A stretch of 34,343 nt of DNA from Bacteroidota bacterium (GTDB lineage: Bacteria; Bacteroidota; Bacteroidia; Flavobacteriales; Flavobacteriaceae): assembly GCA_029561105.1 (NCBI GenBank), contig JAKQJQ010000256.1, positions 1 to 34,343 of the forward strand, written 5' to 3'. Positions 28,035 to 32,618 of the stretch are shown piece after piece; position 1 is the first letter of the stretch, and the number at the start of each line of letters is the position of its first letter. Under the pieces are notes generated by a model that saw only the letters and a list, made by a program, of their open reading frames with translations, ran no database searches and was not told the origin of the DNA. The translations under genes and the position numbers were made by a program.

Positions 28035-28667
28035 ATGAGACACGGAAAAAAGAACAACCACTTAAGCAGACAGACTGGACACAGAAAAGCGATGTTGGCC
28101 AATATGGCTTGCTCACTTATCGAGCACAAGCGCATCAACACCACTGTCGCTAAAGCCAAAGCGTTAAAGCAATTCGTTGAGCCGCTTATTACCAAATCAA
28201 AAGAAGATACTACCCACAACCGTCGTATCGTTTTCGCTTACCTACGTAGCAAATACGCTGTAACAGACTTGTTCCGCGATGTAGCTGCCAAAGTGGGTGA
28301 TCGTCCGGGAGGTTACACCCGTATCATCAAAGTAGGGAATCGTTTGGGAGATAACGCCGACATGGCGATGATTGAACTTGTAGATTTCAACGAATTGTAC
28401 AACGGAGGTAAAAAAGAGGAGAAAAAATCAAAAAGCCGTCGTGGCGGAAAAGCAAAAGGCGCAACTACAGCTCCTGCTGCTCCAAAAGCTGCTGCACCGG
28501 TTGTTGAAGAAACTCCTGTTGAAACTCCAGAAGCAGTTGTTGAAGAAACAGTTGAGACGCCAGTTGCAGAAGTGGAAACTCCAGAAGTTGACTCGAGCGC
28601 TAGCGAACAGGCCGAAGCTTCAGAAGCACCAGCTGCCGACGAGACAGAAGAAAAGAAAGAAGAATAG
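28035..28667 (+). CDS. rplQ: 50S ribosomal protein L17 (bL17) with long acidic tail
   Basis: This 210-residue protein has a normal L17 core in the first 115-120 residues ([20 protein letters not shown]; later [20 protein letters not shown]). The tail of about 75 residues starts with a Lys/Arg stretch and is then made of Ala, Pro, Glu, Val and Thr with repeated [10 protein letters not shown] units, ending in TEEKKEE. E. coli L17 has 127 residues. The tail is presumably disordered. The stop is TAG followed at once by in-frame TGA, the only TAG terminator seen in the window. It is the last gene of the ribosomal block. Confidence 0.97.
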
Positions 28668-28757: not shown

Positions 28758-28822
28758 CGGCAACTGTCCCGCTGTCCGCGCTACGCGGTAGCTTGCTCCC
28801 ATCGGGGCTAAACCCGATGCAA
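28758..28822. repeat. GC-rich intergenic element with two small hairpins (possible dispersed repeat)
   Basis: This GC-rich stretch stands out in an AT-rich gap. It contains CCGCG-cta-CGCGG (28776-28788) and CATCGGG-gctaaa-CCCGATG (28800-28819). The wording CGCTACGCGGTAGCTTGCTC followed by CATCGGGGCTAAACC is, from memory, like intergenic sequences repeated in many Flavobacterium genomes. Copy number cannot be judged from one occurrence. Confidence 0.45.
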
Positions 28823-28827
28823 CCGTT

Positions 28828-28855
28828 TTCATAAGATGTTCATAAACGTTCATAA
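28828..28855. promoter_or_regulatory. three helically phased TTCATAA direct repeats upstream of the carA promoter
   Basis: TTCATAA occurs at 28828-28834, 28839-28845 and 28849-28855, with starts 11 and 10 bases apart, so the copies fall on the same face of the DNA. The last ends 16 bases before the -33 element of the carA promoter. This is the layout expected of a regulator-binding array. The regulator is unknown; pyrimidine or arginine control would suit carA. Confidence 0.5.
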
Positions 28856-28871
28856 AAAACAATCGCGTGAT

Positions 28872-28903
28872 TTTGCGGCATCATGACATTACCATTAGAT
28901 TTG
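28872..28903 (+). promoter_or_regulatory. promoter of carA
   Basis: TTTG (28872-28875), a 20-base spacer and TAGATTTG (28896-28903) match the Bacteroidetes promoter. The start of transcription should be near 28910, right where the heptad repeat begins, giving a leader of about 90 bases. Confidence 0.85.
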
Positions 28904-28917
28904 CAATAAGGGTACAG

Positions 28918-28974
28918 GGTGCAAGGTGCAAGGTACAGGGAGAACCTGTACGCCTGTACCCTGAACCCTGCACC
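28918..28974 (+). repeat. heptad-repeat hairpin in the carA leader (GGTNCAR copy 3)
   Basis: Tandem heptads on the left (GGTACAG GGTGCAA GGTGCAA GGTACAG, from 28911) face reverse heptads on the right (CTGAACC CTGCACC). Bases 28918-28939 can pair with 28953-28974 at 19 of 22 positions around a 13-base loop. An alternative short stem GTACAGG/CCTGTAC lies inside. In the RNA this would be a large 5' hairpin. Its right arm is followed by a run of six A. Confidence 0.75.
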
Positions 28975-28998: not shown

Positions 28999-30117
28999 AT
29001 GAAATACACAACAAAACATCCTGCGATACTACTCCTATCAGACGGCACCATCTTCCACGGCAAATCCATCGGCATTTCAGGGACCACCTTTGGCGAGCTT
29101 TGCTTCAACACAGGCATGACCGGCTATCAGGAAATCTTCACCGATCCTTCTTACTTCGGGCAAATGATCATCGCCACCAATCCGCACATCGGGAATTATG
29201 GGGTCAATGACAAAGAGACAGAATCAAATTCAGTTAAGATTTCAGGACTCATCTGCAAGAATTTCAGTTTCAACTATTCACGTCCCGACGCTTCCCAAAG
29301 TCTGGAAGAATATTTCCAAAAGCAAAACCTCGTCTGCATCTCCGATGTCGATACGCGCGCGCTCACCGCTTACACACGTGACAACGGCGCCAAAAACGCC
29401 ATCATCTGCACCGACGGAACGCCAATCGAGGAACTAAAAATGAAGCTTGCGCAAGTGCCAGATATGAAAGGCCTCGAACTGGCTTCAAAGGTTTCCACCA
29501 AACAACCGTATTTCTTCGGTAACGAAAACGCCAAATACAAAATATCCGCACTCGATTTGGGCATCAAGACCAATATCCTGCGCAACCTTGCCAAACGCGA
29601 TTGCTATATTAAGGTGTTTCCTTACGATGCCACTTACCAGGATTTGGCCGCGTTCAACCCAGATGGCTATTTTCTTTCTAACGGTCCCGGCGACCCCGAG
29701 CCTTTAGCTGGTGCAATACAGGTTGCCAAAGACATCCTCGCCGACAACAAACCGCTATTCGGTATCTGTCTTGGTCACCAGATTATCGGTCTTGCGAATG
29801 GTATCCCAACCTTCAAGATGTTCGGCGGACACCGAGGCATCAACCATCCTGTTAAAAACCTGCTTACCGGAAAAGGCGAAATCACTTCGCAAAACCACGG
29901 GTTTGCAGTAAACCGTGAAGCAGTAGAGGCGCATCCCGACATCGAAATCACGCACATTCATATCAACGACAACACCGTAGCGGGCATGCGTATGAAATCG
30001 AAAAATTGCTTTTCGGTGCAATACCATCCTGAGGCAAGCCCGGGCCCGCACGATTCGAGTTATTTGTTTGACCAGTTTATAGAGAATATGGCCAAGGTGG
30101 CCGTTGCCACAGTATAA
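28999..30117 (+). CDS. carA: carbamoyl-phosphate synthase, small (glutaminase) subunit
   Basis: This 372-residue subunit hydrolyses glutamine and passes ammonia to CarB for carbamoyl phosphate, the precursor of pyrimidines and arginine. The N-terminal CPSase domain (1-150; SDGTIFHGKSIG, ELCFNTGMTGYQEIFTDPSY) is followed by a class I glutamine amidotransferase domain with the triad Cys257 (FGICLGHQ), His343 and Glu345 (QYHPEASPGPHD). I chose the ATG at 28999; a longer frame would run back through the promoter and repeat. carB is not next to it in the window. It converges on a minus-strand gene pair across a shared terminator. Confidence 0.97.
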   Translation: MKYTTKHPAILLLSDGTIFHGKSIGISGTTFGELCFNTGMTGYQEIFTDPSYFGQMIIATNPHIGNYGVNDKETESNSVKISGLICKNFSFNYSRPDASQSLEEYFQKQNLVCISDVDTRALTAYTRDNGAKNAIICTDGTPIEELKMKLAQVPDMKGLELASKVSTKQPYFFGNENAKYKISALDLGIKTNILRNLAKRDCYIKVFPYDATYQDLAAFNPDGYFLSNGPGDPEPLAGAIQVAKDILADNKPLFGICLGHQIIGLANGIPTFKMFGGHRGINHPVKNLLTGKGEITSQNHGFAVNREAVEAHPDIEITHIHINDNTVAGMRMKSKNCFSVQYHPEASPGPHDSSYLFDQFIENMAKVAVATV

Positions 30118-30148
30118 AAAAAGGGACCTCATTGCGGGTCCTTTTTTT
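30116..30148. terminator. bidirectional terminator between carA and the converging minus-strand genes
   Basis: A GGACC/GGTCC stem (30124-30128 with 30137-30141) is extended by a GT pair and by A-run/T-run pairing on both sides. The A-run on the left and T-run on the right let it work for both strands. It overlaps the stop codons of both flanking genes. Confidence 0.8.
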
Positions 30149-31139
30149 ATATTTTGCCTTTAAGAAATTGGCGCTGGGTTTGTATCCAACGGTCTGTGAG
30201 TGCTTTGGTTTGCTGCTTGGCGGCGGCAAGGCTTTCGTTGAATTTGTTTTTGGTAACCGTGAGCTGTTGTTCAAGCAGGTGTAGCTTTTGGGTAGGCTCT
30301 GGCTTGTCAAGCTCTGCTTTTTCTGTGTTGTTTAGGTTAGACAACGCCTGGATATAATCTTTATATGCCGGGATCAGTGTTTGGTTGCGCGATGTCAAAA
30401 ACGCAATCAAATCGGCGTTGGCCACATTGAGTGATTGGTCTACATTGGTTTTTTTGTAGGTTTCAATTTGCGCCAGCGATTCGTTGCAAACTTTGTTTAT
30501 AAAAGCCACGCATTTATTCACGGTGGCATCGTCGGTGGTCAAAAGCAAATCCCACAATTTCACATCCAATACATTGAGTTTGAAAAAAATCAGGCTTTGG
30601 TGCGCGTTGTATTCAAAAGCAATACGGTCGGCAAAATAGCGGTCGTGTTCCAGGCGGTTGCGTTTGCTGAACCAGCGTTTGGCATTGGTGTAATCAACCA
30701 TCGATGCGTAGTAATTGATTACGTTGCGGGTTTTGGTGTCGAAAAGGGTAGCCATTTCATCCAAATCCAACCCGCGTTGCGCTTGGTAGTCCTCTAATTG
30801 CAATGTCTGGTCATCGAGTAGTACCAGCATATTTTGGGTCATTTTCAAAAAGGTGTCCCTAAGCGTGGTGTCACCGCCAAATCCCTTGTCGTTACTGATG
30901 ATGATGGCATTAATGCGCTCGAGTTTGTTGTGAATTGTGGCTAAAGTGGCCTGCGACCGCGATGCTTTCTCCCCGTTGATCAATGATGCCGAGTGCGCCA
31001 CCAGCGATTCAGAGATGAAGCGTTCGTTTTTCTCGAAATCGGCAAGATAGGCTTGTGCGGTCCTGTAGTTTTGCGCCTGCGAGGGCGATGACACGGCAAC
31101 AAGCAACAAAAGACATAAAAGTAAAGGCTTTGCATTCAT
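30147..31139 (-). CDS. exported helical protein of unknown function, paralogue A
   Basis: This 330-residue protein has a signal peptide (1-22, cleaved in SQAQN) and no lipobox, so it should be periplasmic or secreted. The mature part is almost entirely predicted helix with many Asn, Leu and Lys. It shares with the next gene upstream the start QNYRT..AY..DF.KNE.F, then SRSQ, NKGF, LRD.F.KM and EYNA.Q...FK.NV.D.K, so the two are tandem paralogues. I chose the ATG at 31139, directly at the signal peptide. The final 60 residues look like a coiled coil (LLEQQLTVTKNKFNESLAAA). I do not recognise the family with confidence; a helical cell-surface or cell-division-related protein are only guesses. 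Confidence 0.7.
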   Translation of the reverse strand: MNAKPLLLCLLLLVAVSSPSQAQNYRTAQAYLADFEKNERFISESLVAHSASLINGEKASRSQATLATIHNKLERINAIIISNDKGFGGDTTLRDTFLKMTQNMLVLLDDQTLQLEDYQAQRGLDLDEMATLFDTKTRNVINYYASMVDYTNAKRWFSKRNRLEHDRYFADRIAFEYNAHQSLIFFKLNVLDVKLWDLLLTTDDATVNKCVAFINKVCNESLAQIETYKKTNVDQSLNVANADLIAFLTSRNQTLIPAYKDYIQALSNLNNTEKAELDKPEPTQKLHLLEQQLTVTKNKFNESLAAAKQQTKALTDRWIQTQRQFLKGKI

Positions 31140-31204
31140 GGTGATGGCTTTAAAATGGTGGTAATAGACCAGGTTTTCAACACTGGGAGATGCCAATCTT
31201 AAGA

Positions 31205-32287
31205 TTAACGACTGGCGAGTTTGCTGTCTGGTAATGTATAGTGCTCGTGGATGTTTTCAAATTCGCTGTTTTTTTGCAGGAACCTGCTGTTGGCGATTAC
31301 CCAATGGTCCACCATCGCTTTTTTGGTCGCCTGGATCTGATCGAAGGCAGCAAAGAACGCATTCTTTTTAGCGTTGAATGATTTCACCTTCTGGTTGTAG
31401 GCAGCCACAGATGCGGTGGTCTCTGGTCCTTTAGAAGCTTTGAGCGCAGCGAGTTGGGCAGACGCTTCGGCGTAAGCGGTAAATAAGGTGCCGAAAGCCG
31501 ATTCCTGGCTGGCGATCAGGTTGGCAAATCTAACATTGGCCTCATTTAAAGAATTGTCTTTGAATACGTCTTTGTATTGGTTGGTTTTGCTGACGACATC
31601 CTGATGGAAGGCTTCAATGAGTTGCAGGCATTGGGCCACACCCGATTGGTCTTTGGCGTGGAGCAGATTGACCAACTTTTGGTCGATGACGTTCATTTTG
31701 TAGAATAAAAAGTTCTGCCTGGCGTTGTATTCGAGCACATTTTTTTCGCTCTTGTTTTTGAATCCCACGTTGAATTGCGATCCGAAAACCCTTTTGCTTT
31801 TGTCGAAGTTTTTGACTTCCTGGTAATATTCGGTCATCGCTTTCTCCTTTTGTGTCAGGTTGGCGAGGATCTTGTCAAAACGTAATGCACTTTGATAATC
31901 GTAGTCATTGAGGATCAGGCTGCCGTTTTTAAGGGATTCGATTGTTTTTTCATTCATCTTAATGAAACTGTCGCGCAACAGCGTATTGTTCTCAAACCCT
32001 TTGTTGTTGGTGAGCAGGTTTTTATTGATGCTGGCCAGTTTGTCTATGATTCGTCCAGAAGTGGTTTGCGAACGACTATCGCGCTGCGACTCTACAATCG
32101 TAGCCGAATAATCGATCAATGCTTTTTTGACAAACATCTCGTTTTTGCCAAAGTCATCCATATAGGCTTCTATTGTGCGATAATTCTGGGCGTGCAGCGA
32201 TCTTGAAAACAAAGCCATCAAGGCAACCAGCACAATCATTACCGATTTGCGGTTTGCTGTTTGAAGAAAAAGGGTACTATTTTTCAT
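31205..32287 (-). CDS. exported helical protein of unknown function, paralogue B
   Basis: This 360-residue protein has a longer signal peptide (1-33, with SVMIVLVALMALF, cleaved in LHAQN) and a mature part that is clearly related to the downstream paralogue over most of its length, sharing NYRT, NKGF, LRD.F.KM, EYNARQ...YKMNVIDQK and SLNEAN. It is mostly helical, with an Ala-rich coiled-coil-like end (AYNQKVKSFNAKKNAFFAAF) and an extra 20-residue tail not found in the other copy. I chose the ATG at 32287, which lies just after a promoter-like element; longer frames start upstream of that element. The two genes are 65 bases apart and probably form one operon. Confidence 0.7.
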   Translation of the reverse strand: MKNSTLFLQTANRKSVMIVLVALMALFSRSLHAQNYRTIEAYMDDFGKNEMFVKKALIDYSATIVESQRDSRSQTTSGRIIDKLASINKNLLTNNKGFENNTLLRDSFIKMNEKTIESLKNGSLILNDYDYQSALRFDKILANLTQKEKAMTEYYQEVKNFDKSKRVFGSQFNVGFKNKSEKNVLEYNARQNFLFYKMNVIDQKLVNLLHAKDQSGVAQCLQLIEAFHQDVVSKTNQYKDVFKDNSLNEANVRFANLIASQESAFGTLFTAYAEASAQLAALKASKGPETTASVAAYNQKVKSFNAKKNAFFAAFDQIQATKKAMVDHWVIANSRFLQKNSEFENIHEHYTLPDSKLASR

Positions 32288-32311
32288 AACGTAAGTTGTT
32301 GAGTGATAAGG

Positions 32312-32319
32312 CAAAGTTA
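32312..32319 (-). promoter_or_regulatory. candidate -7 promoter element of the paralogue operon
   Basis: On the minus strand this reads TAACTTTG, an exact TAnnTTTG match, 24 bases upstream of the chosen ATG. No good TTTG is found at the -33 distance, so it is a candidate only. Confidence 0.5.
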
Positions 32320-32618
32320 TAGTGCCAAGAACCGCTTCGTGTTGCAGCATCTTACGAAATGTTTGTAGGATTTCAGGAAATGAATTGGAATGTTGTAAAT
32401 TTTAATTATTGAAAATCAAGCTGTTATGACTTTATTTTCGATTAAACCAGATATCATTATTCTTTTTGAATCGACCAGAAGTGCGACAATTGCGGTGGCG
32501 GGCTGAAAATCAGTTCCATCAGGCTGGACTTTTGCGACCGAACCCAACCCTGTGGCTTACGATAACGATTACGTTGATAATTATTTGGATTTATCCGTAG
32601 CGATTGATCAAGTTCCAA
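32320..32618. other. divergent intergenic region between the paralogue operon and eno
   Basis: No complete gene is seen. From 32470 to 32565 the plus strand has an open stretch of 31 codons directly after a TGA with no start codon. It would read IDQKCDNCGGGLK, then a second Cys pair (DFCDRTQPCG) before TAA. This could be a remnant of a small zinc-ribbon gene or chance. The remainder is AT-rich sequence without recognisable repeats. Confidence 0.3.

Follow-up and report, generated by a model that had tools for sequence, protein, structure and literature searches.

A direct-repeat block shared by carA, carB and purL in Flavobacterium, read as a putative operator

Upstream of carA, the genome studied here (G000) carries a block containing two tandem copies of TTCATAA, whose counterpart in other Flavobacterium species recurs before carB and purL and falls into two registers one helical turn apart relative to the -7 box. 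From sequence comparison, this block is probably a direct-repeat operator at which a putative regulator, one that would have to face RNA polymerase, would control the synthesis of carbamoyl phosphate and purines. Short and conserved, with three target genes and a spacing that can be measured, the block offers a direct handle for finding the regulator, and its two registers amount to an experiment by nature on how helical phasing acts in promoters of Bacteroidota. It had been claimed that no known flavobacterial regulator motif matches the repeat, and none is described in the literature that we searched; nor did we find a description of any nucleotide-synthesis regulator in Flavobacterium, which is weak evidence of novelty because subscription literature was thinly covered. 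We put forward more tentatively, as a fuller version that may well not hold in all its parts, that an undescribed Flavobacterium regulator links carA and carB with purL through a two-register direct-repeat operator, with the dispersed element Flavo-1, next to the operator at carB, supplying the -7 box there at precisely the fitting distance in some species.

Array and promoter before carA

The window, by which we mean the whole 34,343-nt stretch that was analyzed, contains the three exact forward-strand copies of TTCATAA at steps of 11 and 10 bases that the original prediction had described (Table 1). At up to 3 mismatches the window has a single instance of the spaced triple, while none of 100 shuffles has any, and TTCATAA is the sole 7-mer whose copies form a threefold series with steps of 10 or 11, with no such case in 200 dinucleotide shuffles (one- and two-letter words excluded). 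The single word is not enriched (7 found, 8.2 expected). The triple is not a chance occurrence. Folding of the array gave no hairpin (z +1.45). Directly downstream, separated from the array end by 15 bases, the promoter has the form already reported for it, TTTTG-N20-TAGATTTG, and from the position of its -7 box we infer that carA transcription starts at about 28908; according to an excerpt of one study, this box spans -12 to -5 relative to the start (PMC9723704).

Table 1. Features around the array, in coordinates of the window
Feature	Position	Strand	Remarks
rplQ (ribosomal protein L17), gene upstream of the array	28035..28667	+	Pfam PF01196
Flavo-1-like dispersed element (RF01705), between rplQ and carA, not part of the operator	28761..28813	-	30.9 bits, E 7.7e-5
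TTCATAA copy 1	28828..28834	+	Local to the window's genome (G000); TTCAAAA in G286
TTCATAA copy 2	28839..28845	+	Conserved block, half 1
TTCATAA copy 3	28849..28855	+	Conserved block, half 2
Conserved block ATGTTCATAAACGTTCATAAAAAA	28836..28859	+	Unchanged before carA in G286; matches TGTTYATAAASNTTNATAA; putative operator core
-33 box TTTTG	28871..28875	+	Read from sequence
-7 box TAGATTTG	28896..28903	+	60 nt downstream of block start
carA, carbamoyl-phosphate synthase small subunit	28999..30117	+	Pfam; NCBIfam TIGR01368, E 8.4e-138

Several other features were seen near carA. A strong inverted repeat at 28909-28974, in the presumed carA leader, has an RNA fold of -38.5 kcal/mol (z -5.28), and pieces of it are dispersed across G000; a mir-5391 match at this hairpin was rejected as far under the cut-off. 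Beyond carA, two adjacent ORFs on the reverse strand (30147-31196 and 31205-32350; 349 and 381 aa) gave no Pfam match at E 0.001. A different leader, ATGAAAC...GTTCCATGAGAC, lies within the last 95 nt before carA in other species, at L012, L045, L130, L220 and further loci (11 distinct cases among 195 upstreams, by a loose pattern) and is lacking in the window. The carA leader of a near relative of the window (L123, from G320) carries a tandem array of the 7-mer AGCTAAC, a possible slippage site.

Conservation of copies 2 and 3

Genus-wide searches covered 398 genomes drawn from a larger group, among them the window's own genome, G000, whose assembly has a contamination of 4.59%. The triple array was rejected as a conserved unit, being present in only 1 of the 398 genomes, G000 itself, a result that on its own would refute the finding. 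The conserved unit is instead made up of copies 2 and 3. An alignment of distinct carA upstream regions comprised 129 sequences at first and 195 in the end (a first set of 140 carA loci gave 129 distinct upstreams, 127 with a -7 box, and 80 further stretches added 66, with 13 repeats and with L236 left out since its carA start was not located), and the counterpart of copies 2 and 3 in other species appeared as the block ATGTTTATAAACTTTNATAA. Written as TGTTYATAAANNTTNATAA (ATGTTYATAAASNTTNATAA), of which the window's ATGTTCATAAACGTTCATAAAAAA is one form, it is present within 2 mismatches in 23 of the 195 upstreams; the other 172 have more than 2 mismatches, so most Flavobacterium lack the block. 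Thus the expectation that footprinting before carA would recover the array fails for the triple and is borne out for copies 2 and 3. The same division applies to the suggested operator layout: copies 2 and 3 are conserved beyond their surroundings, stand at set helical registers to the promoter and are shared with carB and purL, as is expected of a regulatory operator, and the three-copy array as a unit is not supported.

In a distant genome, G286, all 24 of the window's 24 nt are unchanged before carA at a carA DNA identity of only 71%, and the stretch from block to -33 box has diverged from that of the window. The block of G286 stands 60 nt from a TAnnTTTG, as in the window, with a second TAnnTTTG at 33. 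Copy 1 is altered there, and we read it as an additional local repeat. In a group of 20 carA rows, positions that the pattern leaves free are kept as well: all 20 rows have an A immediately preceding the block, for instance, and all 20 have a T at offset 12.

A CarA tree built from 144 distinct proteins by a quick method requires 7 changes to account for the 26 block-bearing rows, 25 of which fall in one group of 33. Such clustering is what would be seen if the block were a relic or neutral stretch, alike by descent only; we regard this as very unlikely, given that the window and G286 agree in all 24 nt next to a diverged stretch, and given the same word at the same spacing before unlinked genes. 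G000 lies outside the block-rich group, among four relatives without the block: the window's nearest rows (G320, G284, G213 and G073) have 5-8 mismatches, none within 2. Four other loci (L126, L128, L131 and L060) carry TGTTCATAA in the 60 register but differ from the complete block at 4 positions, as though only one half had survived. The history of the block may be one of retention with losses elsewhere, of transfer, or of independent gain.

Gene specificity and spacing to the -7 box

The anticipated occurrence of the element before related genes was borne out, as the block of copies 2 and 3 also precedes carB and purL in related Flavobacterium, where the identities of CarB and PurL are supported by protein family matches. 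The exact word TGTTYATAAASNTTNATAA was found in 28 of 398 genomes against 10 matches of a reversed control (reversed-control counts, here and for the composite pattern below, were made by hand from the result tables). This word occupies 28 distinct places: 21 are upstream of carA, at distances of 73-162 nt, and 3 precede purL; the remaining four were discarded as targets, three lying within ORFs and one being an intergenic palindrome. Allowing 2 mismatches in six genomes gave 22 sites, which is not above the 20 of the control, so this depth is uninformative by itself; five of these sites precede carA and two precede carB (L303 and L314, the carB sites of G162 and G188), and the other 15 were read as coding or chance. 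A second block site in G000 was not found at 2 mismatches.

The carB start was sought in 30 genomes and located at 28 loci, all but those of G000 and G021. In 11 of the 28 the terminator of the preceding gene is directly followed by the block within 2 mismatches, and another three loci (L329, L319 and L344) have it in the same place with 3-4 mismatches; a 3-mismatch match at L335 lies before that terminator and was left out of the count. For purL, sought in the same number of genomes, 29 loci were obtained (none in G021), 3 with the exact word. At 14 of the 29 there is a looser form, TTGT[CT]NANAA, whose distance to the -7 box is 50 nt in 7 loci, G000 (L371) among them, and 59-60 nt in the other 7, which include G286 (L372, in the 59 class). 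It was seen at most once in any of 500 shuffles, a generous control because the form was picked after inspection and the shuffle keeps base composition only; the search patterns in general, and this purL form most of all, were picked after viewing the data. Since no carB start was found in G000, the regulon in that genome rests on carA and the weak purL form. The upstream gene, with carA after rplQ and carB after an rpmH-like ORF, is weakened as an explanation of these occurrences by purL, whose upstream sequence is not ribosomal-looking by eye (the rpmH-like ORF was likewise recognized by eye). A second TTCATAA pair in G000 (C79) was rejected: it has as neighbors what we take to be ribosomal protein genes and a response regulator, not nucleotide genes.

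Spacing was measured with the composite pattern TGTTNATAAANNTTNATAA-N19-49-TANNTTTG. Of 398 genomes, 35 contain it, at 40 sites in total, against 8 for the reversed control, and the 40 were classified from 30 search loci and 10 fetched stretches as carA (21), carB (13), purL (3) and other (3). From block start to -7 box, the carA sites measure 48 (2), 49 (15), 50 (2) or 60 nt (2, the window and G286), the carB sites 59 (11) or 60 (2), and the purL sites 50 (3), so that all 37 fall at 48-50 or 59-60, one helical turn apart, where 39-69 was allowed. The three stray sites, at 59, 60 and 66, show that spacing alone does not separate targets; they were rejected, and their neighboring ORFs are presumably an ftsH-like ORF near one of them, upp-like and DUF4254-like ORFs on either side of another, and a small DNA-binding-like ORF downstream of the remaining one. 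Outside the exact composite set, L094 has the block at 59 and L084 a 4-mismatch form at 39. Related species share descent, so the 37 sites cannot be counted as that many independent events; the weight rests on the number of genes (three) and of registers (two), and on a register that has changed at least once at carA.

Separately, the stray block at 66 (L384, from G102, at about 1500) lies between the upp-like gene, which we assume to belong to pyrimidine salvage, and a divergent ORF.

With the -7 box placed as above, a spacing of 49 puts the block at about -61 to -42, and the spacing of the window puts it at about -72 to -53. On the preferred reading, a sequence-specific DNA-binding protein, probably as two adjacent subunits arranged head to tail, would occupy the repeats 10-11 bp apart and dock upstream of the -33 box, on a helix face permitting contact with RNA polymerase. 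It would thereby tune carA, most likely activating it; in related species carB and purL would be under the same protein, and carbamoyl-phosphate and purine synthesis would be coordinated. Activation is hinted at by the 20-row carA group, whose -33 box is weak, with G in 0 and 1 of 20 rows at the two columns where G is expected; the TTTTG of the window is intact. No candidate for the regulator was found.

Two further explanations bear on the same geometry. Biosynthetic genes are frequently subject to end-product repression, and the set carA, carB and purL would suit the operator of a repressor responding to end products; the position of the block upstream of the core promoter, at a distance that shifts by approximately whole turns, fits contact with polymerase better than blocking, and we therefore hold a repressor to be unlikely. 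The block might also be an UP-type element, read by the alpha C-terminal domains of RNA polymerase with no separate regulator. UP elements are A/T-rich and extend from about -59 to -38, and the block, likewise A/T-rich and phased with the promoter, occupies a similar position in the 49 register with two 10-bp subsites, but lies farther upstream, at about -72 to -53, in the window. However, a generic booster would hardly retain a single 19-bp word before three genes and few others (37 of 40 composite sites), and the block, unlike an UP element, is specific to certain genes and has G and C at fixed places, which makes this explanation quite unlikely. Our literature search returned no UP consensus for Bacteroidota.

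Known operators and neighboring Flavo-1 elements

The direct-repeat operator proposed here has partial counterparts elsewhere. Its layout, to judge by comparison, resembles the tandem sites of OmpR/PhoB-type winged-helix response regulators: the Pho box of PhoB, too, lies upstream of the core promoter and is built of tandem direct repeats at intervals of about one turn, with a half-site, TGTCATA, that resembles the TTCATAA of the window. An excerpt of the literature describes the Pho box as two 11-bp repeats in 22 bp (PMC3978041). The steps compare as 11 bp in the Pho box, 11 and 10 in the window and 10 in the conserved pair. However, the units of the block are TTCATAA, TTTATAA or TTNATAA, so that membership in the Pho box class would fail on the half-site, and its targets are carA, carB and purL, with no phosphate gene recognized among the sites found. 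A second comparison is with the ARG box of ArgR, an A/T-rich operator at carAB of other bacteria that forms an 18-bp inverted repeat. The block shares with it the A/T-richness and the location at car genes, but is a direct repeat and also stands before purL; at the search settings used, the array was not found to contain both arms of any inverted repeat.

The Flavo-1-like element that adjoins the array in the window falls below the gathering score (30.9 against 42 bits) and is separate from the block, which also occurs without it. Flavo-1 appears as a Bacteroidetes motif in an excerpt of one survey (PMC2864571), and a passage of another study reports matches in F. psychrophilum in sense and antisense with no clear function (PMC9723704). 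That the block is part of this dispersed element, or its insertion site, would agree with the Flavo-1-like elements adjoining it before the window's carA and before carB of G162 and G188, where an Rfam Flavo-1 match lies between block and carB. We consider such an origin extremely improbable, given that G000 has at least 141 Flavo-1 matches (from 150 of 726 candidates scored) but one block, and that the block is read from the sequence without Flavo-1 at carB in G040 (L324) and before purL.

Among other carB upstreams, the TAnnTTTG at spacing 59 in G013, G273, G071 and G001 seems, by eye, to lie inside a Flavo-1 element, and L325, L334 and L406 are among those where it looks as though Flavo-1 had supplied the -7 box.
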